From assembly GCA_950295325.1 (NCBI GenBank), contig OX485809.1, positions 30,566,001 through 30,630,000 of the forward strand: a stretch of DNA of 64,000 bases. Reading direction: 5' to 3'. Positions 6,481 to 35,270 of the stretch are shown here, in pieces. A model generated the notes under the pieces. It saw only the letters and a list, made by a program, of their open reading frames with translations. It was not told the origin of the DNA and did no database searches. The stretch's first letter is position 1. Each line of letters opens with the position of its first letter. The stretch is from Polytrichum commune (taxonomy: Eukaryota > Streptophyta > Polytrichopsida > Polytrichales > Polytrichaceae). A program made the translations under genes and the position numbers.

Positions 6481-8544
6481 ATGGCAGGTTCTGCTCCTGA
6501 AGGTTCCCAGTTTGACGCTCGCCAGTATGACGCCAAGATGGAGACCATGTAAGTTCTCCTACTTGTAACATTCTTTTGAATGCACAGCAATACTTTTCAT
6601 ATATTTAATCCTCGAGAAGCTTGGTACGATAAGTCTGTGAGCTACGGTTGAGAGACAGTGAAGTAAAAAGGAAAGGAAACTATGGAACTGTATTTCTTCT
6701 GTTCCCTGATATAGCATTTAACAGCCTTTCTGTGCAACAAGGTTGTCAAAGTGATTGAAACATTTTTTCAAACTTAATTTTCGAACTTATTTTGGCCTAA
6801 ACTTTCAGCTTGAGCGGCGAGGGTGATGACTTTATTTCAACATGGGAGGAGGTCCACGATACCTTCGATGCTATGGGACTACATGAGAATCTTCTGAGAG
6901 GCATTTACGCATATGGTGAGCAACACTATACCCATTCTGTGGATTTCTTGTTTTTCCCATCATTTGTGTTCTTAATTGGACGCAGAGTGAACCTGTTTCG
7001 CTTGGATAGTATGAAATGAATAGATAAATGTAGTAAGAGTTAAATGAGTTAGTTAAGGGATCTCTGCATATGAAAACCACACACAGGAAGCTCCTGAAAA
7101 AACCTGATCTTAGAAATACCCATACTTTGGTCAATACAACTACCGTTTTCACTCAATACTATCCATCTTTCAATGGATAGGTTGGTTGTTATCAGTTTCA
7201 TCTTCAAATTATGATGGCCCACTGTAGTGGCTGTTGAAACTCTGCTTGAAAGTTTTATGTAAAGCCTAATTGCATTTTAGAGCTCGACTGATTCTCTGAA
7301 TAAAATGGTGACAGGTTTTGAGAAGCCTTCTGCCATTCAGCAGCGAGGTATTGTGCCCTTCACAAAGGGTCTAGACGTTATTCAACAAGCACAATCAGGC
7401 ACTGGAAAGACAGCTACTTTCTGCTCTGGTATCCTTCAACAATTGGATTATCAGCTTCTTGAGTGCCAAGCTTTGGTCTTGGCACCTACCCGTGAGCTTG
7501 CCCAACAGATTGAGAAGGTGATGCGCGCCCTTGGTGACTACCTTCAGGTCAAGGTACATGCCTGTGTTGGAGGAACCAGTGTAAGGGAAGACCAGAGGAT
7601 ACTGCAGAGTGGTGTCCATGTTGTTGTTGGAACCCCTGGTCGCGTGTACGATATGTTGCGAAGGAATGCACTCCGTGCTGATTCCATCAAGTGCTTTGTA
7701 CTGGACGAGGCTGATGAAATGCTTTCTCGTGGATTCAAGGATCAGGTGTGTTCTCACTCAATTATGTGCTGTGGAGCCTTGACTTATCAATCATTTCTTT
7801 TGGTTCTTTTTTGGATGATTGAACATGTGAAGTTTTCAGCATCCGAGGAAGTTGCGAGTCTTATAGACTGCTACATGAGTCAACTAATACTTAGTGTCTA
7901 TGATGCAGATTTATGATATTTTCCAGCTGCTGCCTCAGAAGCTGCAGGTAGGTGTGTTCTCTGCTACTATGCCCCCAGAGGCCCTTGAGATCACCAGAAA
8001 GTTCATGAACAAGCCTGTGAAGATCTTGGTCAAGAGGGATGAGCTGACTTTGGAGGGTATTAAGCAGTTCTATGTAAATGTTGACCGGGAGGAATGGAAG
8101 TTGGATACCTTGTGTGATCTCTATGAGACTTTGGCCATTACCCAGAGTGTTATCTTCATCAACACCCGCCGAAAGGTCGACTGGTTGACCGATAAGATGC
8201 GTGGTATGTCAAGTTTACTGGTTGTACTCGTGAATGCAGTAATTATTTCAGTTGCCTGTTATGTTACCGTTTTAGTTCAAGGAAGGTGTTGTGCATATAT
8301 GATGTGCTCACTTGTTCCTTTTATCCTTGTATGAAGTCTTGGATCTTCAAATGGAATGATCTGATAACATGTCCATGCTGTTTACACCATCCTTAGCTTG
8401 TGGGCCTTCTGTGTTCTGTGTTGTACTTATTATTGTGAATGATCTGCAGCTCGTGACCACACTGTGTCTGCAACTCACGGAGATATGGACCAGAACACCC
8501 GTGACATCATCATGCGTGAGTTCCGCTCTGGCTCATCTCGGGTC

Positions 8545-15060: not shown

Positions 15061-18000
15061 ATGGCAGCGAACTGGGGTGCTTTGAGCTCTTCTGCCCTAC
15101 CCGGTGTTTACTTCTGCCATAGCCACCATGGAACACCTCTCCCTTGGACTCGTGTGCAAATCCATTTGCATCATTTGCAGCAGATCTTGGTGTTCAACAA
15201 GCTTCAGCCTGCAACGGCACTACCCTCATCTTCTGCTGCAGCAGCTCAACATTCTAACGCAAGAATTGCAAAGAGCAACCGGCGGTCGCGGTTTGGTGAA
15301 TCCCTGCCCACTTTTAGTCTGGAGGATGAACTGGAAGGCAGCATCAATCTTGTGGCTCAGTTGCGATCTGCCGTAGGTTTCCTTTCCTCCCCTGAATCCA
15401 ATATCATCATGCTTTGATGCTTCTCTATCCTTTTTATGGCCTTTAGCAGTTTATTACTACCGCGTTGAGGTGAGTGGACGTAGAGCGAACACTTTTAGCT
15501 CTGCACCTACTTCTCCTAGAATGTTAACATGCGATTAGTATGAGATGACAAGAAAAATTCAAATTGAGGCCGACTTAAACCACTTTCCTCATTAGTTTTG
15601 GAGCTCATATGAATATCTTTTTCATTATCATGCCTAATGGTGCAGCTTTAGTTCATCCTTTGTCTGCATTGAATTCTAAGTACCTTGAACCTTCTAAGTC
15701 GTCGGCCTTGAAGATTCTACAAGTTCAAATTTGGGCCTGAGCTTGAAAATCTCCTTTTGTTGGATTGAATTCCACGTACAAGCCGAACTGGGGCTTGAGC
15801 TTGAAAAATCAATCCCGACAAAGCGGGAACTAACCTTGAGACAATGTAGCTCCCACCATCTTAGGCACCTGTAAGGAAGGGCTCAAATTTCCTCCTTCAT
15901 GTTTCAGTTTCATACTTCCACTATCGGTAACCTGTGGTAATGGTAGAGTTCTGTTTGTTTTCTTGAAGTTTTGAGGCTCTGTTTCCACCTTGTACAGTTT
16001 GTGTACCTTAAACCCTGGGAACCCCGGGGTTTTTTTTTTGTTGAAGGTTTTGGAGATCGATCACAGTAAGTTTGAGATTTGTGGCAGGAGCTAGAAATAC
16101 AGGAGCAGGAAGAGAGAGACGTGGGTTTGACCACAAAGAAGGCACAGCAGAAACTGAAGAAGCTGGGGATTGAATTCAAGAGAGTTGAGAAGATGCCGCC
16201 CGTGGTGACCCGCAAAGTGAAAGTAGTTTCTGCGTCTGCTTTGGAGGATCTTTCGGCGATAAGCTCCCCACGTTTATCTGTTGCAGGTTTGTTTTGAATT
16301 TGATGAGTGTTACAAATTCCATGTAGTAAATTCACACTTGCACTCATTTAAATGTAGACCCTGATCACAGAAAATACACACTCAGGTCACTACTAAATAA
16401 AGGCTTCCTAATCCTGCATCTAAATTGAGTCTATCTAGCTGGTTTTGCTGTTGACTCCAGTGCTTGTAAACTATCATTGCTATCACAGTGTCAACTGGAG
16501 CTGAGAACATGGGGACATTTGATGTTGTACTTTGTGTAAGAGCCGACCTAAATTAGAGTTTTGTTTCATACTTGATCTTTATACACAGTTTGAACACAGG
16601 ATGTGGAGGACTCGTATCTCTGTTAGTGAATGTCTTAAGCTATCACAGAGCTTACATGCAATTAGATGCATGTTTTCAAATGTGAATTCCTGGGGATAAT
16701 GTTCAGGTACAAGTGGCAGGAAGGTTCTCCAAAAGAAGCCAAGTTTTCCAGGGACCAAAAAACTATCTCGACATGACTGGGAAGAACAAGCATATCAGAT
16801 TATCCAGCGCCAGAAGCTACGAGACACTGCCTTCCGGGAGCGGGCTTTGGCATTGGAGGAGGCACAAAAGCCATCGAGCAGGAAGCCTATTCCACTCCAC
16901 GTTGATGCCCCTATTACAGAAGTTCTTCCTCAGTCAAAAGGGGTACAGCAATTCCTTACACTTTTCATGGTGTGCATGTGTTGCAGATCATGGATTATGA
17001 GCTGAGGTAGATGGGTTTTAAACAGTTACTTTTTCTGACTAGCCCACTTCTCCTAGGATATGAAACACACAATTAGTACAAGATAGTTAGCAAATCCAAA
17101 TCAAGGCTGTACCCACTTTCCTCATGATTTTTGGAGCTCATATGAATATCTTCTTCATAATCAAAGTGCAGATTCTTGTGCTCATTAAATGGTCATATAG
17201 GTCCTTTGGAATTATGTTCACTGTTAAAACTACAATGGTCATAATATCTTGAGCACGCAATCCAATCTCTATTAAACACGTGTCTTTTTGGTATCTGGTC
17301 TTGGAGCTACACCAAACCACATACTACTCAAATATAGGTGTATGTTCAAGATTTGTAACTGGAATACACATGTCTACCTTAGTGGTAAATTGAATCGATC
17401 ATGATAAGAGCTGCATATTTCTTGCTAGTGAATACAGGTACTTGATTCAGAAGTTCTTGATTTCCAAGAAGAAATTATGGCGTGGGAAAACAGATTGTAG
17501 TAATTACTGGCACCTGTAGCTGCATGTTGCTACTTCAATTAGCCCTAAACGAGCCTTTGAGCACATACTTCCATTTTTAGCAAATTGTGTTAAAAGTGAC
17601 TGTATCTTAGATTACCTCATGGTTCAAATGCACTTTTCGGACTTAGATTACCTTCATGTCACTGAAGATTTGGGTTTAAATACAGAGTATGGGTGCACAT
17701 ACATACTTACTATTTTGATCATCAATGTCACAAATGAGGATATTTACATTTTTTCCTTGACATAAGATAATGTACTAAAGAAATTATAAAAATATGATTT
17801 TAAGACATGGTGAGGCTCATAGACGTTGTGTATGTAGGTCGTACATTGAGCCCCTTAGACCTTTAAGGGTTAGTATGTGTGAAAGAAGCAAACCCAGTAT
17901 CCAGTTCATTCTTCACAGGCTGTGTAATGATGTTTTTTTTTGCTTTGTTTTTGGCATGACGATCCAGGTTGATCTTTTCAGTGAGATGGAAGATGCATTC

Positions 18001-20663
18001 TTTGAGCACTTGTCGGCAAAGTTACGATTTGAACCAAAGTGGCGAGCCTTGGTTTGTTACCTACACCAACTAGGACTTGGAGAGGAAGATTTTAGGAAAA
18101 TTGTTGACAGGCACAGAACTTGCCTTCAGACAAATGCCATCATGGTGAAGGAAAGAGTGGAGTATCTTGTTAGCGTGGGTGTTGAACGAGAAAATTTAAG
18201 CAAGCTCATTGTGCGGCACCCTCAAATTATAGAGTATACAGTGGAGAAGGCACTTAAACCCCGAATCCAATACTTGAAACGCCTGGGTGTTCCCGACTCA
18301 AAATTGGGTCGTGTTATCAGTGTGGCACCCTCCTTACTTGAATGTAGTCTGAACCGCTCTTTGAAGCCAAGGGTGGAGTATTTGAAGGATGTTGTTGGCA
18401 TCAAGGAATCTGATATAGGGCTCATTATTACTCGAAGCCCCCAGGTCAGTGCCGCCTTCTCAACTGTCAAAAAGCAACTGTAGAAATGGATATAAAATAA
18501 AGTAGTGAAACCATTGCACTTTTAAATACAGCTGTAAATGTTGCACAAAGCTTATTGAGTGGTATTTTTAAGTAAGGTAGATGGTGTTAAATGGTTCCTT
18601 TTTCCGACCAGTCCACTTCTCCTAGAATATGCAACACCTGAGTAGTACGAGATGGTTAGCAAATCCAAATCAAGGCAGTAGCCACTTTCCTCATTATTAT
18701 CGGAGTTCATATGATATTCTTACTCATTATCAAAGTGAAGATTCTGGTGCTCATTAAATGGTCATATAAGTAACCCCAATTCTGTTGAATCTTGAGCTTA
18801 GAATTGTTCATATTTTGCGCACGTAGTCCAATCTCTTTTAAACACGTCTTTTTGGTATCTGCTCTTGGAGCTGCACTTAACCATGTACCACTCAAAAATA
18901 GGTGTCTGATTAAGATAAGTAATTGATATAGGCACATCTACCTTATTGTGTCCTAGTGCCTGGAGTCAGTACGGATGTTAGAGCAACTCCTACAGAATAT
19001 GATTCTCTCAGTAATCAGCTTTCAAAGTCAAATGGCCAATGCTGCATGCTCATCACGCACATAAAGTCCATATATATCATAAATTTTCTTTGCCCGCCGA
19101 ATCCAGAGTGTATGAGAGAGAGACGGCCGTCTACAGTTTGATCCTCAATTCTTGAGGGTGGGAAGGAGTTTAGAGGGTTGACTCTCTCAAAAATTGGTGG
19201 GCAAAAAGAATTTGGAAAACATATAGGCTTTGTGGGTGGAATGTGCACGTGGTCTTGTCCCAGGAGAACCTCTAAAGCTGATTAGTGAGAGAATCATTTT
19301 CCAGTGACCACAGGAATTGCTCTATTGTAGTTGAAATCAATCTAAATCAGGCTCTGGGAATATCATTCAGGTATTAACACAAAGTATCGAGGATTCGCTG
19401 GAGCCTCGAGTGGAGTTTTTCATGGTAGAGATGGGGGTCACGAAAGAGAAATTGGCAAAGATGGTGACGCGACATCCCCAACTTTTACACTATAGTGTGG
19501 AGGATGGCATCTGTCCTCGTGTTGATTATCTCAAGAGCATTGGCTTAAGCAAAGATGACATTCTAAAAGTATTTGCTCGCCTTACCCAGGTACAACAATA
19601 AAACTGTGCTCACTTTGTTATGTGTTTTTTAAGCTCTGCTTTAAGGTATGTGGGTCTTATTCAGTTTGTTTATCATGTTCTCCAACTTCTACCAATTAGA
19701 TTTACACAATGAAACTTGTGTTCCATTAGCAAATGTATGATGAAGCATGATTGAAAATTGGACCTCCCTTGATTTAGTTATGGTTATTGGAAGTGCATGT
19801 TTGTTGATTTATTAATTGAATACATAGGTCCTCCTAATTGTGTTCACCATTGAGTGTGGATTGGTTAATCAAATTTGAAGATGAGTCCAGCCTCTTTCAG
19901 AAATGTGTTTTTATGGTGTTTGTTCTTGGACTCTCACCGAGCCACTCACCAATCAAATATACGTGTCTGATTCAGACAAGTAATTGAATAACACCCACAT
20001 ACACTAATTCAGTTGTATGAAGCCAGTGCAAAAATGCTCAAGGAAGAAAAGGGAACTTCGATTCCCATTGTACATGAGATGATCCTACCGATGGTTTTTG
20101 TCTCGTCACCACAGATTTCCAGACGCAATGTTATTATGTTAAAATGATCAAATATTGAAAGGACATCATAAGTCTTTGATGATAACTCCATTACTTATTT
20201 TCATCTATTATATGCCACATTATATAACTAGCTAGAAAAATTATTAGATGAAAAGAGTAGATGAACCATAGCATAATTATATTATACACCACTAGGTGCA
20301 ATTTCAATTCAAAAATTTGTGATGTGTGTGCAGGTATTGTCTCTTTCGATTGAAAATTGCTTGAAGCCAAAGTACGAGTATTTAGTGAACGAGCTCAATG
20401 GAGGGCCGCACACTGTGACCAGCTTCCCTGCGTACTTCAGTCTCTCCTTGGAGCAACGCATCAAGCCCCGCCATCGGTATCTTTCTGCACTTAAAAGACT
20501 GCCCAAGGGACCCTTTCCGATGAAATCACTAGCTGTCACAGATTCGTGTTTTTGCAAACAATTTGCAGATACGACCGTAGAGGAGTATCAAGCTTTCCGG
20601 AATGAGCTTCTGTTGAGCAATTTTGCAAAACAGTTTGAGTGGAAGAATAAAGTACAAATATGA
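15061..20663 (+). CDS. mTERF-family organellar protein
   Basis: The mTERF family consists of helical-repeat proteins that bind nucleic acid in mitochondria or plastids and act in transcription termination, splicing or ribosome biogenesis. Exons are 15061-15372, 16088-16286, 16707-16942, 17968-18444, 19371-19589 and 20334-20663, total 1773 nt, giving 590 aa. All borders are GT-AG and phases match. The N-terminal ~100 residues are rich in S, A, H and Q and poor in acids, as in a transit peptide. Exons 2-3 encode a charged linker. From about residue 250 come tandem mTERF motifs with the typical L-x(3)-P signatures (IVRHPQIIEYTVE, VISVAPSLLECSLN, IITRSPQ, MVTRHPQLLHYSVE). The C-terminus (FPAYFSLSLEQRIKPRHRYL, then KGPFPMKSL) is typical of plant mTERFs. 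The ATG at 15061 is preferred over one at 14950 because the microsatellite lies between them. The exact paralogue is not assigned. Confidence 0.9.
15505..15632 (-). repeat. MITE family A fragment in mTERF intron 1
   Basis: The blocks cacctacttctcctagaat, gagatgacaag...caaattgaggcc and ggagctcatatgaatatc match the left half of the reverse-oriented copies at 17003 and 18573. Terminal repeats are not preserved. Confidence 0.6.
17003..17383 (-). repeat. MITE family A, near-complete, in mTERF intron 3
   Basis: It is bounded by tgaggtagatggg on the left and catgtctacctta on the right, which are imperfect inverted repeats. The core reads ccacttctcctaggatatg, agctcatatgaatatc, aatccaatctct and ccaaaccacatactactc. 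Its length (~380 bp) matches the other complete copies. Confidence 0.75.
18573..18946 (-). repeat. MITE family A, near-complete, in mTERF intron 4
   Basis: Left end taaggtagatggtg and right end cacatctacctta are inverted repeats. The 374-bp body aligns block by block with 17003-17383. Confidence 0.78.
19642..20005 (+). repeat. MITE family B, near-complete, in mTERF intron 5
   Basis: Left end taaggtatgtgggtcttatt and right end aataacacccacatacacta are inverted repeats, with small differences from the perfect pair in the 45507 copy. The body contains ccaattagatttacac and cctaattgtgttcaccatt, shared with 780-1137 and 61699-62088. Confidence 0.78.
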
Positions 20664-24847: not shown

Positions 24848-25780
24848 AAATTTTTTTCATTTTTTGAGAAACGAAACAAGATTTATTTCAGTACAAGAAA
24901 ACATACAAGATCATCTGGACCAAGAACAAGAGAGCATGGAAACTCTCTTGGGTGCACCTTGTGGAACCACAAAACCCCGGTCCCCAAGCATGGTGATAAT
25001 CTAAGCATGATCAACTAAGCCAACATGAGGCGCCCGATTGTTCCACATGATTTCAGAATTTGACTTGTAGTAGAGGAGGTTGTTGTTGCCCCAAGTAGCG
25101 TGGAACTTAGCGAGGACGTCATCATAGGTAGCCTCCGTCTTTGAGTCTTCAAGGGCTTTTCTCCAAGCAAATATAGCATAATCAAGAAGGCCTCGCCAAA
25201 TTGTTTGCTCTACCCTACTAGCATCCCATCTAGTCTTGTTGAAGGTAAGATCATTCCTCTCAATCCAAATGGTCCACAGTGTAATTCCTCTAAGGAGGAG
25301 CCAAATTCTAGAGTACTTGCTAAAAGAGGCCGGGATCTTCTTGCCAAAAATGCCATGGTGCCAATGGAAAGCTTTCCAAGGTCCTTTTTGATGAGGATGA
25401 GCTTTCATGAAGTTAATGATGCCAATGGCATAATCCCAAGCTCTCCTCGCAAATTTGCAGTCCCAAAACCGGTGTGCAATGGTCTCAGGAATGTCGAGCG
25501 CACACATGAGGCATTTGTCATCAATCTCATCGATAAACCTAACTCTCCAAGAGTTAGCGGCCACCACCTTGTGCCAAAGTGACCAAATAAAATCCCCTTC
25601 CTTCTTACTCCTCATTTTATCCCAAACATTCCCCCATTTAAGCTTCTGGAATCTCTTTTGGGACTCCTGAGACGTCTTGGGTATAACGATCTTCTCTTTA
25701 CTTGGAAATTTGAAGCCTCCAAATTCAACAAAAAACTCGATCATGTACACAACACCTTTGGTAACAACCTTGATTTCGTG
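24848..25780 (-). mobile_element. 5'-truncated LINE, zinc-binding C-terminus retained
   Basis: The minus-strand frame encodes the zf-RVT region that ends plant LINE ORF2 proteins: W-rich DFIWSLWHKVVAANSW, then CLMC and HRFWDC (C-x2-C, H-x4-C), then LWTIWIERNDLTF. After its stop codon about 150 bp of 3'UTR lead to an A-rich tail (plus-strand t-runs at about 24848-24866). The upstream end falls inside the last exon of the oxygenase gene. The 5' boundary (about 25740-25780) is approximate, and no target duplication could be identified. Confidence 0.8.
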
Positions 25781-28700
25781 CATTAGGTTGCTGCCATGTG
25801 TGTTTGCAATGCACACTGCCATCCCAAGTTTTGGAGCAACCTATTTCCATGTACCATCAACACGACAATAATAACTTTGAGACCCACAAAATCAATAATA
25901 TTCAAGTGTAGAAATAGGGCCATTGATGATTCTTTCTCACTCTTAAATAGTATTGTGAGGGTGTCATTTTTCTCAAATACAAATGGGTAGGACATTGAAA
26001 CAAAACTTAAAAATTTGATACTTGGCAAATCAAAGGTATTGAAAATATTTGTTAAATATCTAAGGGTAGGGAAGTTATACCATGGGATTTTGCAATGGTT
26101 TATGTGTAAAATATCAAGTGGGTATCAAGATTGGTATTGAAGAATGCACATGATGCCACAAGGATCTTATATTCTATACCTAACATACACCCTAATCGAT
26201 ACCCAAGTTGAATTGGGATACCCCACAACATTGCTCTTAACCACCACTTCACCAATATGGCATTAACTAATGTATGAAATATTCAGCCACCTATTGCCAA
26301 CTTGCTTAAATTAGCAATAAGCAACCTCCTCTACTCCAAAAAAATGTGTCCTTAACATGAGCATATATCAAGCTAGGTATCAATGTATCATGCAAGTCTC
26401 AAGATTGATATGTACAATGTAGATTATGACATTGCAAAGCTACTTTGGGGTGGGGTTGGCTAGAGGGGGGACTCTATGATAAGTCTCAAAAATGCCAAGA
26501 CATACCTTCACAATTTGTTTTTGTTTTGAGTTGCCAATGAGGTATTGTTGTGAGTAGAGCACGGTCTCCCCTCCATCCACTATTGATGGTCCTCCACTAG
26601 AATCAACATCATCATCAACTTGACCTCCATTTAAGTAGAGAAGCACTTTAAATCCCATAGGAATTACCGAATTATACCCATAATTACTCTCGTTGGAACT
26701 ATGCGGCTCACACATTTCACCTTTCTCATATCTGCTCCACAAGACATCGGGGAGAAAGTAGATGTAAAGTGCATATCAACATAGTAGCACCAACATCATA
26801 AGTTTCCAATTCATGCTATGATAGTCACATGATGTTTGTAGTCTCCTATTGTGAGTCTACCTTCACATGATGAGCAAATTATTTTGTAAGATCAATACCT
26901 ACATGATAATATAGTGCATTTTGGACCACTACAAATGAATCTAACACAATCATTGCCACTAATACACCACCCTTTGAAATTTGTGATGTCAACTAGTACC
27001 TGTGTATCGTCGCACATTTGACACCAAGTGCGTGCGCATCTTTGAAGCCTTTTAGTGCAATGCCTTCAAAAGCCGCCTTTAATCCGGGTGTCCACAAAAG
27101 CTTATATAAATCATATAGCTGATGATCCGCTTTGTAAATGCCATTAGTTCTAGTAAAATGGACCTCCTCTGTCCATGGGGCACTCCATGTATGAGGCATG
27201 CATAGTGGAGGATAAGACTTCCGATACCCATTATTGACAACAAATATGGCTCCACCATAAGATCCCAAATTATTGAGTTGTGTCTGGTGATAAAATCCCT
27301 TCGCTTCCACTGATGTTATGATAGCCTTGCAATCCTTGGGCGTCAATATGTTGGAAACCTGCATGAAAATTAAAAAGTCCAAATGTGATTCATAAATCCA
27401 TCTATTTTTAAGTGCAATCAATTAACGGTTTGAGAATGTGGACCTCCTGTAGGGCATCCTTTCATGTCATTCCATTTCAATAGAAATTATAGTTTTGTTC
27501 CCAATTTATTCCCGTTTTATTCCTTTGATGCTCCCAATGACATAAAACTCAAACTAGGTAGTAGACACCTAGCACTCATGTGGGATGACGACATGTTTGA
27601 TGAAGGAATAGAGAACTAAGAAACTGCTCCACCAACTTGAAGGCACTAAAGTCCTTGGAGCTTCTTACGTCATGGGAGATAATTGTCAAGGGCGAGCTAA
27701 TAAATTTCCCTTCTTCACTAAAATTTCCCCTCCTCACTACCATTTCTTGTACAGCCTCCCCAAGTGATCTTTGAGCTTTAGAGTCAACTTATGGAGTATG
27801 GTATGTGGGTCTAATTCAATCACTTTCCTTGATTGAACACGTATATTGAGTGGTGTGTGGTTAGATGTGGATCTAAGAACAAACACCAAAAAGACATGCA
27901 TTTGAAAGAGGTCATCATGTTACACGCTCAATTTTTGTTAACTCTTCGAGGTTTGATAGTCAACAATACTGAGGGGACCTATATGATCATTCCAAGAAAA
28001 AGAGAATATCATTTTGATAATAAGTACAAATATTCGTATGAGCTCCGCATGATATGAGGGAAATGAATGCAATTACCTCAATTTGGATGTGCTATTCATT
28101 TCATACTAACCACGTGTTCAACATCCTAGGAGAAGTGGGTGCAGACTGAAAGTCGGGTAAAAATGCTCATTTTAGACCATTACCTTACTCATGACCATGC
28201 ATAATTAATGCATGTAAGGTAGATGGGTCTTAAATGGTTACATTTTCCGATTAGACCATTTCTCTTAGGCTATGAAACACGTGACTAGCACGAGATGATT
28301 AGCAAATCCAAATTGAGGCCATAGCCACTTCATGCATACCTTCTGGAGATGATCATATGAATATCCCATTCATTATCAAAGCACAGACTCTTGTGCTCAA
28401 TAAATGGTCATATACGTTCCCCCAATTATGTTAACTATTCAGTTTAAAATGGTTACCATACTCTAAGCATGCAATCCAATCTCTTTTTAACACATGTCTT
28501 TTTGATGTCCGTTCTTGGAGCCACTATACCAAACCACATACCACTCAAATATAGGCGTCTTAATAAGGTGGGATACCAAATTAGGGTTGTCTATCTTACC
28601 TAACTTCTCACATGTGTAAGAGCATGTTCACTTGTTATCAATACATGGCCCTATAATGGGACAATGTCAGGTTTAGTCTGAGAGCTAGACCCACATATCA

Positions 28701-29335
28701 AGCCCAACCGCTATGGTACCTCTAGTGGGATCCAGAAAACTCTCCCAACCCGGAATAGCTCGGGTATGTTGCAGCCCAACTTTCAACTCCTCTTAGATAG
28801 AAAATCAACTATCAATACCTCACAATCTTTGACCAAATAAAATCTTAGCTTCAGCTATTTCTATGTAATGCCTTATGTACTATAAGATATTAGTTTTGAT
28901 CACGGGACCCACAATTTCTTAAGCTCATACATATGGACATATACTGTAACTACTCCCCTCTAAAACAATGTTACCCAATTAGCACCCCTTTGTGTGAGCG
29001 TTTGGTGTACTAAATTATGAGGAGACTTGTGAAATGAAAAGAATTGGGAGTGTGTCGGTACCGCATCATACCGTGAAGAGCGTGGGGAAATCACGATCCA
29101 ATATCATGTGTCGTCGTGCTCCGATCTTGTGCAATCCGGTTCCTTTGAGTGGACAGCGAGGAATGATGCCAATGGCATTGGAATCAGACCTATCTTTCTC
29201 ATACTGTTTCTTGCTCCGAATTCGCATTGCCTCCACAGATGCTATGGTATCCACCACCCTCAATGTGCGGCCATCATCGCGGATAAGTGGCCAGGGAGAA
29301 GGAGCGACATCTTCTTCACGAGGTTTGCTCCACAT
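25001..29335 (-). CDS. 2OG-Fe(II) oxygenase (prolyl-4-hydroxylase-like) fused to LINE C-terminus
   Basis: Exons on the minus strand are 29335-29072, 27358-27000, 26731-26506 and 25840-25001 (1689 nt, 562 aa). Introns are GT-AG and phases fit. Residues 1-316 look like a 2OG-dioxygenase: LFTVSNILTPKDC, then HRYEKGEMCEPH, MGFKVLLYLNGG, GGETVLYS, and finally LMHEIKVVTKG with the distal His (304) and the 2OG-binding basic residue. From about residue 317 the same frame enters a LINE zinc-binding domain (C393, C396, H406, C411) to the stop. The Asp of the proximal H-x-D motif is absent (H218-S-S), so iron binding is doubtful. The ATG at 29335 is the first in-frame ATG of a longer open stretch. On the far side of the LINE (24831-24808, minus) a frame reads ILRTTEVM, resembling the normal family end. 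This could be a pseudogene or an expressed chimera. Confidence 0.7.
27795..28160 (+). repeat. MITE family A/B copy in intron 1 of the oxygenase gene
   Basis: The left side tggtatgtgggtctaattc resembles the family-B terminus. The core gagtggtgtgtggttagatg, then a decayed aaagagg...cacgctc block, is family A. The right side (cctaggagaagtgggtgc) lacks a clear terminal repeat. Confidence 0.55.
28215..28601 (-). repeat. MITE family A, near-complete, intron 1 of the oxygenase gene
   Basis: Left end taaggtagatgggtc and right end gttgtctatcttacc are imperfect inverted repeats. The body has the family-A blocks ccatttctcttaggctatg, gatcatatgaatatc and aatccaatctct in order. Confidence 0.72.
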
Positions 29336-31190: not shown

Positions 31191-34100
31191 TCAATGTAGC
31201 AGTGGTTGCGACGTCAACCCTGCCGCCAAGAGTGTGGTGGCAAACCTCCCATTTGCACCTTTTGGGAAGAACAAACCCGGAATCGATGCATTTCCAGTTC
31301 CATACAACACTTGCAACATCTGTGGCCCCAACTCATCCCAGCAAAATGCTTTCAGCCTCAAAGATGAAACCACTAAAGAAAGCAAGATCCCATATCTTGT
31401 AGTCCACACATACATGCCATCGAACTACGTACTTGGAGCATTAAACACTAGATTACAGATTGTTGCAGATCCAAGCTAAATTCAAGTTTTGTTAACAAAA
31501 TGGCAAGAGGAGCTGTGTAATATGAACTCACCAGTGTTGGACTGGTATCATCGGTGTACCATTTGGATATCTATAATGAGGACTCCACTTTTTTTTTCTT
31601 GAGTACCACTTGGGTATGGGTATTTGATAGTATTTTCGTTTTCAACAACATTCGGGTATATACACAATGCAAGAACCTTCATACCTAGGTAAACTCGTCC
31701 TAATATAAATATGGTTTAGAATGGTGTTGACCCCAATACACTCTAAACTCCGTAATATCACACCTATGGCAACCAAAGTGCACATGATATTACAGAGTTT
31801 TGTAGCGTTAACATGGATGCGTGATACTACAGCTTTAATGTAGCATGTGACATTATGGAATAACACAAAGGAGATGTGAGGACAATTTGAATTCGTTCTG
31901 CCGTGACCTACGCTAGTGTGGTCCACGCCACTTGGACTTCCCAGACGATGTGGTGGATGCATGCACCAACATTCAACAAGTGGCATAAAAAGGAGAGGAA
32001 GAATAAGAATAAGAAGGTGACACTCCACATGTTGACACATGGCGCAATGCGAGGATGTGGGTTGACTTCTTGGGTGGTTTGCATTGATGACAAATTTCAT
32101 GATATAAGGGAGAGAAATGTGACAATAAGGAGTGAGATTTGAACTTTGAACATCTGGTTTCAGGATATTAGATAGTGTGTGACATTATGGAGGGTTGATA
32201 TTACGGAGTTTAGGGTGTAGTAACTCAAGTTTACACAGATTCTCTCACCAAACATCAATATTAGACTAGTATTACAATTTTGGAACCCATGGGAAGGTTC
32301 TTTGATGCCATTGTGGATGTTGATTATTTCATACCCATGCATTCCCCTATACAGTTGATACTCACCTGCTCAGGGGTGCGGCCAACAGACAGGGAGTTTG
32401 TGTCCACTGAAATGATGTTCCCAGTGAGCATGTGCTCCGGGGTTTCGTCGCCTGAGACCAAGACACCTTCGTCCACGGTGGCCGGGAGGGTGACTTCGCC
32501 GGTCAGTGGATCCAACACGGTCACGTTCGCACGATCGAGCTTGGACCGCATGGCCGACAGAACTTTGGTGAAATCTCCCACCGTCATGTTGTAGTGTGGA
32601 ACTTTCTGCCTGCGCCGTTGGTACAGCACAGTCCGAATTGCTGAGTCTTCGGCTGCTTTCACCCCCACAAGCCCCGCGACTAACTGCCACCAACCCCAGC
32701 GTTCGGCATTCACGAGATTGGAACCTTTGATCGAATACTGACAAGTGATTATGTTGCATGGCAAGAGGAAATCAACTGGTCTCGAAATAGAGATTGAGCA
32801 GGAAGTTCCTTTAGAAGAATCAGTTAACCTGTTTCTGATCTGATATCGTCCACTGGGGTACTTAAGAATTCCAGTTTTAGACGGCCTTCGTTTGTTCTGA
32901 TCAAGTACACGCTGTTTAGACAATAGAGGGAGATGTTTTCTGACACAAGAGGGTATGGTCGAACCTACACATTTGCCCCCACAAACCCCGCGACCAACTG
33001 CCACCAACCCCAGTGTTGACATTCACGAGATTGAGAGCTTTGATCTATACTGGCAAGTTATGATATTGCATGCCAACAAGAGATTGAGCAAGAACTTCCT
33101 TTGAAAGAATTAGATAACCTGTTTCCAATTTGATAGCATCCAGGATTACTTAAGAATTCCAGTTCTAGACGACCCTCGTTCGGTCTGATCAAGGAGACGC
33201 TGCTTAGATGAATACAGGGAGATGCTTCTGACAGAGGGTAGGAATGAACCCTTACACTGCGAGCACGCACTCCTCCGACGTGTTCATTGATGCCAACGTA
33301 GGCTGTGTAGCTGACATAAGGCAACATGTATGCCGCAAGTAGGAAGGCATTTCCTGAACTGTATGGGTTGAAAGACGGCCGCAGTTTGGTTCCAAAGGCT
33401 TCATTGAAAACTCCACCCCAATTGTGCCTGCTGATATCAATCTGTGGCCGGGAGATTGCCTTCTCGCCAAGATCCGCATGTATCTCCCTGTTGAAGGAAA
33501 TTCACCATTCATTCTCACCACAAACTTAATTTCTCATATGTTCAGGTTACCTTCACAGTACTACATGTTCTCAGAAGAATTACGGTGATCATCGACGGTT
33601 CCGATACGATTTTGTGCAGTCGTTTCAGATTTTTAAGTGAATTCATGGGGGTGTGTCTTGGCAGTTTACCCAGTGCAATGACATTTAATGTTATTTGTTG
33701 AGTCAGTGCCGTTTCGAAATCCAGTCATATTGTCGATGTTCAGAATGTAGTGAGAGATTGTGACAATCAGATTGCAGGATACAAACATTAAGCATATTAC
33801 TTTTTGGAACACCCTTGTCGTTTGTAGGATGCATTTTATAAAAATGCAACCCTTGACATTTGCTAATAAGTGTTCACCATCATCATCGAATCCTCAGGTA
33901 GGACATTCCAGGTTCACTTTGCTTTGCAGTACTTGAGTGGTGTGTTTATCAGTTTTCTCTCAGGCTGCAATTTTTGTGATATACGAGTTTAGTGATTCTA
34001 CAATGTTAACCTGATGTGTCCCAGAGATTGGAGTCCAAACTCTTTGGACATGTGCTCCACAAATTTGCCCATTCGGGCTTTCTGGGCCCCAATCGGCGAT

Positions 34101-34531
34101 GGACCGGAGATGTTGACTGCAGTGCCATTGAACTTATCCAGACCATAGCCGTAGGCAGCATTGAGGAAGAACTCTGCCTCCAAATACTCCGCATTCAACA
34201 CCACGTTCAGCTCATCAACGTCACGCTTTGTATATGCGGAACGTGGGTGATGACGCCTCCTGTGGTGACCTCCGTGCTGACGTTTGGGGCATTTGCACTG
34301 GAGATCGCTTGTGCTAGCAAGTTGTTGATCGCCAGCCCCCTCGGAATCCTCAGCGATTCCACCATATGGATAACTACTTCGGGTTGCAGCAGCATTGTGA
34401 TTAACCTCTTCGTCCTGGATGGCTACAGTGCTAGAAGTTTGCTCCGCGTTGGCATGAGCTGTGGGGAATGGAATTGCAACAGAGAGTATTGCGAAGGCTG
34501 AGAGAACCATCCATTTCAAAAATCTTGCCAT
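31191..34531 (-). CDS. Desiccation-related protein, PCC13-62 type (ferritin-like domain)
   Basis: PCC13-62 proteins accumulate in drying plant tissue; their molecular role is unsettled. Minus-strand exons are 34531-34011, 33487-33256, 32683-32366 and 31319-31191 (1200 nt, 399 aa), all GT-AG and in phase. Residues 1-28 form a signal peptide (hydrophobic core then PTAHA), so the protein is probably secreted or vacuolar. A basic stretch [15 protein letters not shown] lies at residues 83-97. The ferritin-like domain starts near 103 with [20 protein letters not shown] and continues through [29 protein letters not shown] and [17 protein letters not shown]. The family C-terminus LYGTG...[11 protein letters not shown] lies in the short last exon. 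The ATG at 34531 was chosen because it opens the signal peptide. Introns carry a duplication (intron 2) and a family-C MITE (intron 3). It looks intact. Confidence 0.92.
31737..32220 (-). repeat. MITE family C, long variant, in intron 3 of the desiccation gene
   Basis: Outer termini (tacactctaaactccgtaat and the inverted attacggagtttagggtgta) match over 24 bp with one mismatch. Compared with the copies at 13.5 and 30.0 kb it is reversed and carries about 240 bp of extra or replaced central sequence (31870-32110). Confidence 0.78.
32660..33256 (-). repeat. ~310-bp tandem duplication spanning intron 2 and the flanking exon edges
   Basis: The unit containing cgcgactaactgccaccaac (32675-) recurs at 32989- as cgcgaccaactgccaccaac. 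The following about 280 bp match block by block (cacgagattgga/gag, agattgagcaggaagttcct, cttaagaattccagttt, gagggtatgg). The unit runs from the end of exon 2 through the intron into the first bases of exon 3. Confidence 0.82.
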
Positions 34532-35270
34532 TGTTGCACACGGAGACGACAAATAGCAGCGGCAATGCAAGAAGTGTAGATCTACTTTTGCAACAGTCTT
34601 TAGTCTTGCTTCATCGAATCGGTGTATTGCAAAATGCCTCTCTCTAATTGCGGATAACCCGAATGTCAAGCTTGTGTTTCAAGGAAATTGCAGAGTGACC
34701 GAAAGCTGATGGAAATACTGGCAGAAGTCGATATCCTATGTAAACACCATCATTGGTGTGGGTTGAAATACTGCGCATCTGAGAGCTCAAGTCGTGACTC
34801 CATTCCCACACAGGTTTCAACAGCTTTTGAATCGTCGGAAATATCTGGAATTGTATCGAAAATGCTACCTACATCTCTTGTATTCAAACTGGGAATCACT
34901 TAATTTCAGTCTAGAATCTTGCAAGTCCCTTACCAATATCAATGCCCTCGCGTGTGTGTGTGGGGTTGTGCTACGCGCGAGTGTTTGCTGAAGCTCCAGG
35001 TCACACAGAAACTTCAAGGGAAGAGGGGTAGTTTCGTGGGACGTAGGTGCTGGCAGTTAGCAGTTACTTCCGTTACATTCATTCCCTGAATGGGTTTTGT
35101 GAATACATCCAGAGTCACATGCAGATTTCAACGTCCGTCCAGTGAATGGAAGGTTTTGCAACCCCAAACGACAAAAGTAGCATTCAAGATGATAACTCGG
35201 AGCAAAGTGAACCAATGATGAACCTCGGTTCAGAAAGTAGGCGACAGTCATCCATTACAATTGCTACACA
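34532..35270. other. Promoter-side flank of the desiccation gene
   Basis: This region lies upstream of the minus-strand start codon at 34531. It contains moderately complex unique sequence and no supported ORF. I could not single out a TATA box or stress element with confidence. Confidence 0.35.

Follow-up and report, generated by a model that had tools for sequence, protein, structure and literature searches.

The locus lies on the minus strand of a 64,000-nt window of the Polytrichum commune genome (the window being the whole stretch of DNA analysed, to which all coordinates refer) and comprises a four-exon gene, whose last exon passes without a stop from an oxygenase-like host sequence into the C-terminal part of a LINE ORF2. 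The gene model of the sequence-only reading, with its four exons, intact splice borders and phases and a frame of 562 aa, was reproduced in full: all the introns (3/3) show GT/AG borders and the minus-strand frame is open through the four exons. The features of the locus are listed below in the direction of transcription, the numbers of H218 and S220 having been obtained by hand count.

29335-29072, minus strand: exon 1, residues 1-88, with the donor ACG/GTATGA
27358-27000, minus strand: exon 2, GT/AG borders; the protein search of the genome matched the locus and one distant paralogue
26731-26506, minus strand: exon 3, with PHSS (H218, S220) where the paralogue has PHYD
25840-25001, minus strand: exon 4 as a whole, ending in TAG at 25001
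25840-25646, minus strand: part of exon 4 that belongs to the host (residues 284-348), with the distal histidine H304, GVVY, MIEFFVEF and a stretch unmatched elsewhere in the genome
25665-25651, minus strand: probable 5' copy of the target-site duplication, AGTCCCAAAAGAGAT, from the best ungapped 15-mer pair
25645-25001, minus strand: 5'-truncated C-terminus of a LINE ORF2, read in the LINE's own frame and giving residues 349-562 and TAG, with zf-RVT and its CCHC ligands
25000-24866, minus strand: LINE 3' UTR, through which the alignments of many copies extend
24887-24882, minus strand: AATAAA in the LINE 3' UTR, read from the sequence
24865-24845, minus strand: interrupted A-rich tail of the LINE, AAAAAATGAAAAAAATTTAAA
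24844-24830, minus strand: probable 3' copy of the target-site duplication, AGTCTCAGAAGAAAT, from the same best ungapped 15-mer pair
24827-24825, minus strand: probable former host stop TGA, which follows QKRS when the empty site is read in the host frame

As judged by sequence comparison, the LINE homology of the tail is beyond doubt. The tail matches the zf-RVT family (PF13966) with 31.9 bits against a curated cut-off of 27.5, and the zinc ligands already pointed out (C393-x2-C396, H406 and C411) are present in it, the ligand motif of zf-RVT being C-x2-C ... H-x4-C. A protein search of the genome (408 Mb in 64 contigs), with a query that started at V314 of GVVYM, gave 152 matches including the tail itself (150 of 2027 candidates scored). 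Among the matches listed, at least seven sit in open frames of more than 1,000 aa with 42-45% identity, and because the protein matches fall in such long open frames, the frame of the tail is taken to be that of ORF2. Many of these listed matches start at query residues 35-37, that is, near 25645, and three, own locus aside, start before residue 31 (at 2, 19 and 30). At the DNA level, 44 matches including the own locus (40 of 316 candidates scored) showed 67-87% identity over the aligned stretch. Dispersed copies homologous to the tail thus occur genome-wide, and the element ends in an A-rich tail, as for an L1-type insertion.

The upstream border of the LINE was located with a short junction query, which detected four other places; the match began at query base 116 (window 25645) in three of them and at base 122 in the fourth. 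Moreover, anchoring at the junction succeeded for 21 copies; several of these have common sequence upstream of 25645, and the own locus shares nothing there with any of the 21 at E 0.001. The LINE at this locus is accordingly read as 5'-truncated, several copies going on upstream of 25645 where the own copy does not. The stretch 25750-25646 had no other match in the genome in a search that skips common words, and for lack of such a match the sequence upstream of 25645 is read as host exon. The LINE boundary, the frame and the A-rich tail are all visible in the sequence. The earlier proposal that the tail is read without a stop was right, but its start right after VVYM and its length of about 240 residues have to be moved to 25645 (residue 349) and shortened to 214 residues.

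The LINE and its A-rich tail are bracketed by the probable duplication, whose two copies are identical at 12 of 15 positions, the three differences being all transitions. When pairs were drawn at random from the window, 56 of 20,000 reached 12/15 or better, and a looser local alignment of the duplication gave values of 0.032 (shuffles) and 0.038 (random pairs). Five nucleotides (25650-25646) separate the 5' copy from the LINE. When the flanks are joined to reconstruct the empty site, the host frame reads ...KTSQESQKRS-stop, and the frame with the letters of the 3' copy, followed by eye, runs into the same TGA. From the position of the duplication, the insertion is placed in the last codon before this in-frame TGA and the ancestral host protein would be 347 aa long, the exact insertion point resting on a diverged duplication. 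The three differences in 15 positions suggest, with a wide error, that the insertion is old. The proposal made from the sequence at the outset, in which the 3' end of a LINE entered the last exon and left the frame intact, finds support in the position where the LINE begins, in its A-rich tail and in the diverged target-site duplication.

According to the explanation that we consider highly probable, target-primed reverse transcription would have put a 5'-truncated plant L1-type LINE, probably an old one, into the last exon of the host, landing at the last codon ahead of the stop in a divergent 2OG-Fe(II)-oxygenase-like gene. The truncation point would have joined ORF2 in ORF2's own frame, and the stop would therefore have been displaced by 215 codons, so that the gene would now close with the zf-RVT region, the stop, the 3' UTR and the poly(A) signal of the LINE. 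The LINE-derived C-terminal extension is real and the event is of a known kind, its function being putative. As predicted from the frame, the plant could produce or use the extra 214-residue tail; the making of the whole 562-aa chimeric protein is possible, although we lean slightly towards doubt.

The host part of the gene scored 19.1 bits with the 2OG-FeII_Oxy_3 profile (PF13640), below the cut-off of 27. When both parts were searched separately, the tail returned zf-RVT, whereas residues 1-316 hit no Pfam family at E<=1. In the genome, the PF13640 profile recovered six places, among them the locus L016 and not the host gene, while a protein search with a query lacking exon 1 found the own exons plus one distant paralogue, L016 again, on contig C1. 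L016 (G000:C1:72944912-72945289), which alone turned up as a relative when the genome was searched with the host protein, is a compact 2OG-FeII_Oxy_3 gene with a single open frame of ~221 aa from Met; its 37.8 bits with PF13640 lie above the cut-off. A single BLASTP comparison of the host part with L016, a canonical paralogue, gave an E of 1e-15, and the alignment reaches the final VVF of the paralogue, with the in-frame MIEFFVEF set ungapped against its last strand. In a search against solved proteins, L016 had hits to 10 distinct sequences (E<=1), prolyl hydroxylases for the most part, and a host query of 324 aa, which included the formerly supposed end ILRTTEVM, had no relative at E<=10. 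The description 'prolyl-4-hydroxylase-like' thus holds as a distant kinship through the BLASTP match to L016, but falls below the PF13640 cut-off as a family assignment.

The 2OG oxygenases are characterised by an HxD...H iron triad and a 2OG-binding Lys/Arg. As in L016, the host part keeps the order of the motifs, the distal His (H304) and a VAP-x2-GMA block, and it differs from this 2OG-FeII_Oxy_3 protein in its score under the family cut-off and in the two residues that follow. The PHYD and GLKY of L016, whose Asp and Lys we take, as in prolyl hydroxylases, for the iron-binding aspartate and the 2OG-binding lysine, are replaced in the host by PHSS and GVVY, leaving H218-S-S220 instead of HxD and V314 at the position of the paralogue's K, an incomplete motif. 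With both the HxD aspartate and the 2OG lysine replaced, catalysis by the host is unlikely, and the encoded protein is probably not an active hydroxylase but a 2OG-fold protein that is likely dead. These same two changes make it doubtful that it was a 'metabolic enzyme' that captured the LINE tail.

The open frame of the tail was then set against 40 other LINE loci aligned to the own copy, four duplicate loci having been dropped. Two LINE matches of the protein search with identical scores (G000:C1:4555-4902 and G000:C63:6672-7019), one near the start of C1 and one in the small contig C63, possibly reflect redundant assembly. The frame test covered the 31 copies in which 100 or more complete aligned codons were available; seven with fewer, together with L011 and L012, were left out. 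None of the 31 is open, that is, without stop or frameshift, over its aligned span, and 30 contain at least one in-frame stop; the frameshift counts take the own copy as reference and vary with how BLAST aligned the copies. An open frame is therefore unusual for this LINE subfamily; intact elements exist in more distant LINE subfamilies.

Of the explanations for this open frame, the one that fares best, at a little under an even chance, is that of a pseudogene, in which decay of the oxygenase-like gene had begun before the insertion or was brought about by it, the frame staying open by luck in a less mutated copy and any chimeric protein being of no consequence. The replacement of the paralogue's D and K by S220 and V314 agrees with a host gene that may already have been decaying. 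In a tree of 36 copies, the own copy shows the shortest tip of all (0.079), and its divergence is lower in all site classes, the 3' UTR among them, where it differs at 10 of 128 positions, about half the ~11-23% of the other copies with UTR counts above 60 (a divergence judged by counts). The close subfamily (L018-L026 and most of L031-L043) gave a star-like tree with tips of ~0.13-0.2, support values not being part of this reading, and because the tree of the close copies is star-like, the subfamily would seem to have expanded in one old burst. Part of the own tip may be older than the insertion. The content of CG, summed over 20 pairwise comparisons, is 194 for the own copy and 141 for the others at the same positions, a surplus compatible with methylation as the cause of the lower divergence and also with a younger age. 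Moreover, for the ratio of branch lengths between codon positions 1+2 and position 3 (0.51), 11 of the 35 other copies have an equal or lower value, although within the close subfamily only L018 does. The poor score of the exon-4 acceptor (-0.93 with a rough matrix) and the fact that the case was selected for its open frame point in the same direction. On the opposite side, the four exons carry no stop despite their deep divergence from the paralogue, which indicates a long past constraint on the host part. Scaled to the tip of 0.079, an unselected tail would be expected to have accumulated 2.9 stops and 3.6 frameshifts, giving a rough joint P of ~0.0015 for its being open, a value taken on a case picked precisely for its open frame.

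A less favoured explanation, which we regard as rather unlikely, would be an exaptation, with the LINE tail being kept by purifying selection to serve a catalytically inactive 2OG-fold protein as its nucleic-acid-binding module. The frame is open and the four zinc ligands are retained, but the ligands are kept in 18 to 23 of 26 copies regardless. Compared with the subfamily at >75% identity (20 others), the own copy showed 23 synonymous, 19 non-synonymous and no stop changes in 170 usable codons, codons being dropped when the majority in one of their columns fell below 60% or a column contained less than six sequences, whereas the 20 others pooled gave 311, 583 and 66, respectively. The difference in the synonymous to non-synonymous counts had a Fisher P of 0.0125, but that in stops alone reached only 0.11, and these counts pool the period of the active element with the period after the insertion. 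The dN/dS of the own tail (0.26) is the lowest among the 11 copies, own included, with at least 120 usable codons, but is equalled by the shorter copy L041 (60 codons), and the codon-position branch ratio is ordinary among all 36 copies. Three indels relative to the own copy, common to about half of the close copies (8/17, 8/16 and 7/12), are all confined to the 3' UTR, outside the coding part; however, they may be older subfamily differences, and one coding indel is common to 4 of 19 copies. Altogether, with signals at the codon level that are weak or mixed, it appears rather unlikely from these comparisons that the tail is maintained by selection, and we would give similarly little weight to the full scenario of a dead 2OG-oxygenase-fold protein that gained a LINE zinc-binding C-terminus through a displaced stop and has been kept by selection since the burst of the subfamily.

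The insertion point itself was formerly read differently, with VVYM-ILRTTEVM as the end of the enzyme, the LINE inserted right after VVYM and the following 96 nt as filler or a second insert, so that the host sequence of the empty site would not run on through GGFKFPSKEKIV. We now find this quite improbable. Compared with the paralogue's end VLRSDVVF, ILRTTEVM scores 14, a value reached by 0.12% of the stop-free six-frame 8-mers, yet with an estimated ~60 8-mers near the end of the LINE the chance of such a score is ~0.07. A regular expression built after seeing ILRTTEVM gave one match in 127,996 residues. When gaps are allowed, ILRTTEVM has 14 against 13 for the in-frame end, but its score is equalled by 448 of 11,649 random 10-mers, and over 21 residues with gaps the in-frame end is ahead (45 against 42). 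The in-frame MIEFFVEF, taken at a fixed position, has a P of 0.02, and the frame of ILRTTEVM is off by one. The best duplication at the VVYM site reaches 8/15, and a junction there was rejected given the LINE boundary at 25645 and the lack of a duplication. The 96 nt between VVYM and the LINE showed no convincing match to an inverted LINE among the fetched copies and none elsewhere in the genome in the search that skips common words, which leaves their origin as an inverted LINE or repeated insert unsupported. That ILRTTEVM is the displaced end of the enzyme is consequently disfavoured, there being no duplication at VVYM, an ungapped MIEFFVEF and an empty site that reads into TGA, and the resemblance is probably due to chance.

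Even less probable is that the LINE is spliced out as a new intron, or that transcripts end early, leaving the tail untranslated, since, in a rough scoring with plant frequencies, an acceptor-like CAG at 24839-24837 does score 3.31 (above the gene's own exon-3 and exon-4 acceptors, 1.47 and -0.93, and below that of exon 2, 6.66), but no donor above 2 lies between 25840 and the TAG, and the single phase-compatible GT, found by eye, would remove GVVYM.

Returning to the LINE-derived extension, the tail resembles the zf-RVT region (PF13966) of plant L1-type LINE ORF2 in sequence, frame, CCHC ligands, 5' truncation and a 3' UTR with an A-rich tail, but differs from the related copies, 31/31 of which have stops or frameshifts, in continuing the frame of a host exon. 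A study on Arabidopsis gene-TE chimeric transcripts (PMC10241880) describes TEs in the 3' part of genes that provide termination and poly(A) sites; the present case is alike in its 3' TE with a poly(A) signal, whereas here a coding frame is lengthened, as known from sequence alone. TE-derived exons have been reported to have a low coding potential on average (PMC2203978). The likeness to the exonized TEs treated there lies in a TE-derived sequence within a predicted CDS, with the difference that the tail described here, unlike Alu exons, was already coding in the LINE. Among the top literature matches listed, none described a plant gene that acquired a zf-RVT tail by such a route, and none reported an oxygenase-LINE fusion.

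Should the tail prove to be translated and conserved, the locus would be a clear case of a plant protein lengthened by a LINE in a single step, with a ready-made domain added at the stop codon, and if a dead 2OG fold with a kept tail is the true state, it would join, in a plant, a fold that binds small molecules to a nucleic-acid-binding domain from a retrotransposon. If, on the contrary, the tail is not made, the locus would be a useful illustration of a chimeric protein suggested, but not proven, by good splice sites and an intact frame. An old and still open insertion is one where relatives can test selection. Regarding the surroundings of the gene, five long neighbouring frames were scanned, two of them without any match, and the frames at window 7281-7913, 17779-18480 and 34001-34678 match DEAD helicase, mTERF and Ferritin_2.
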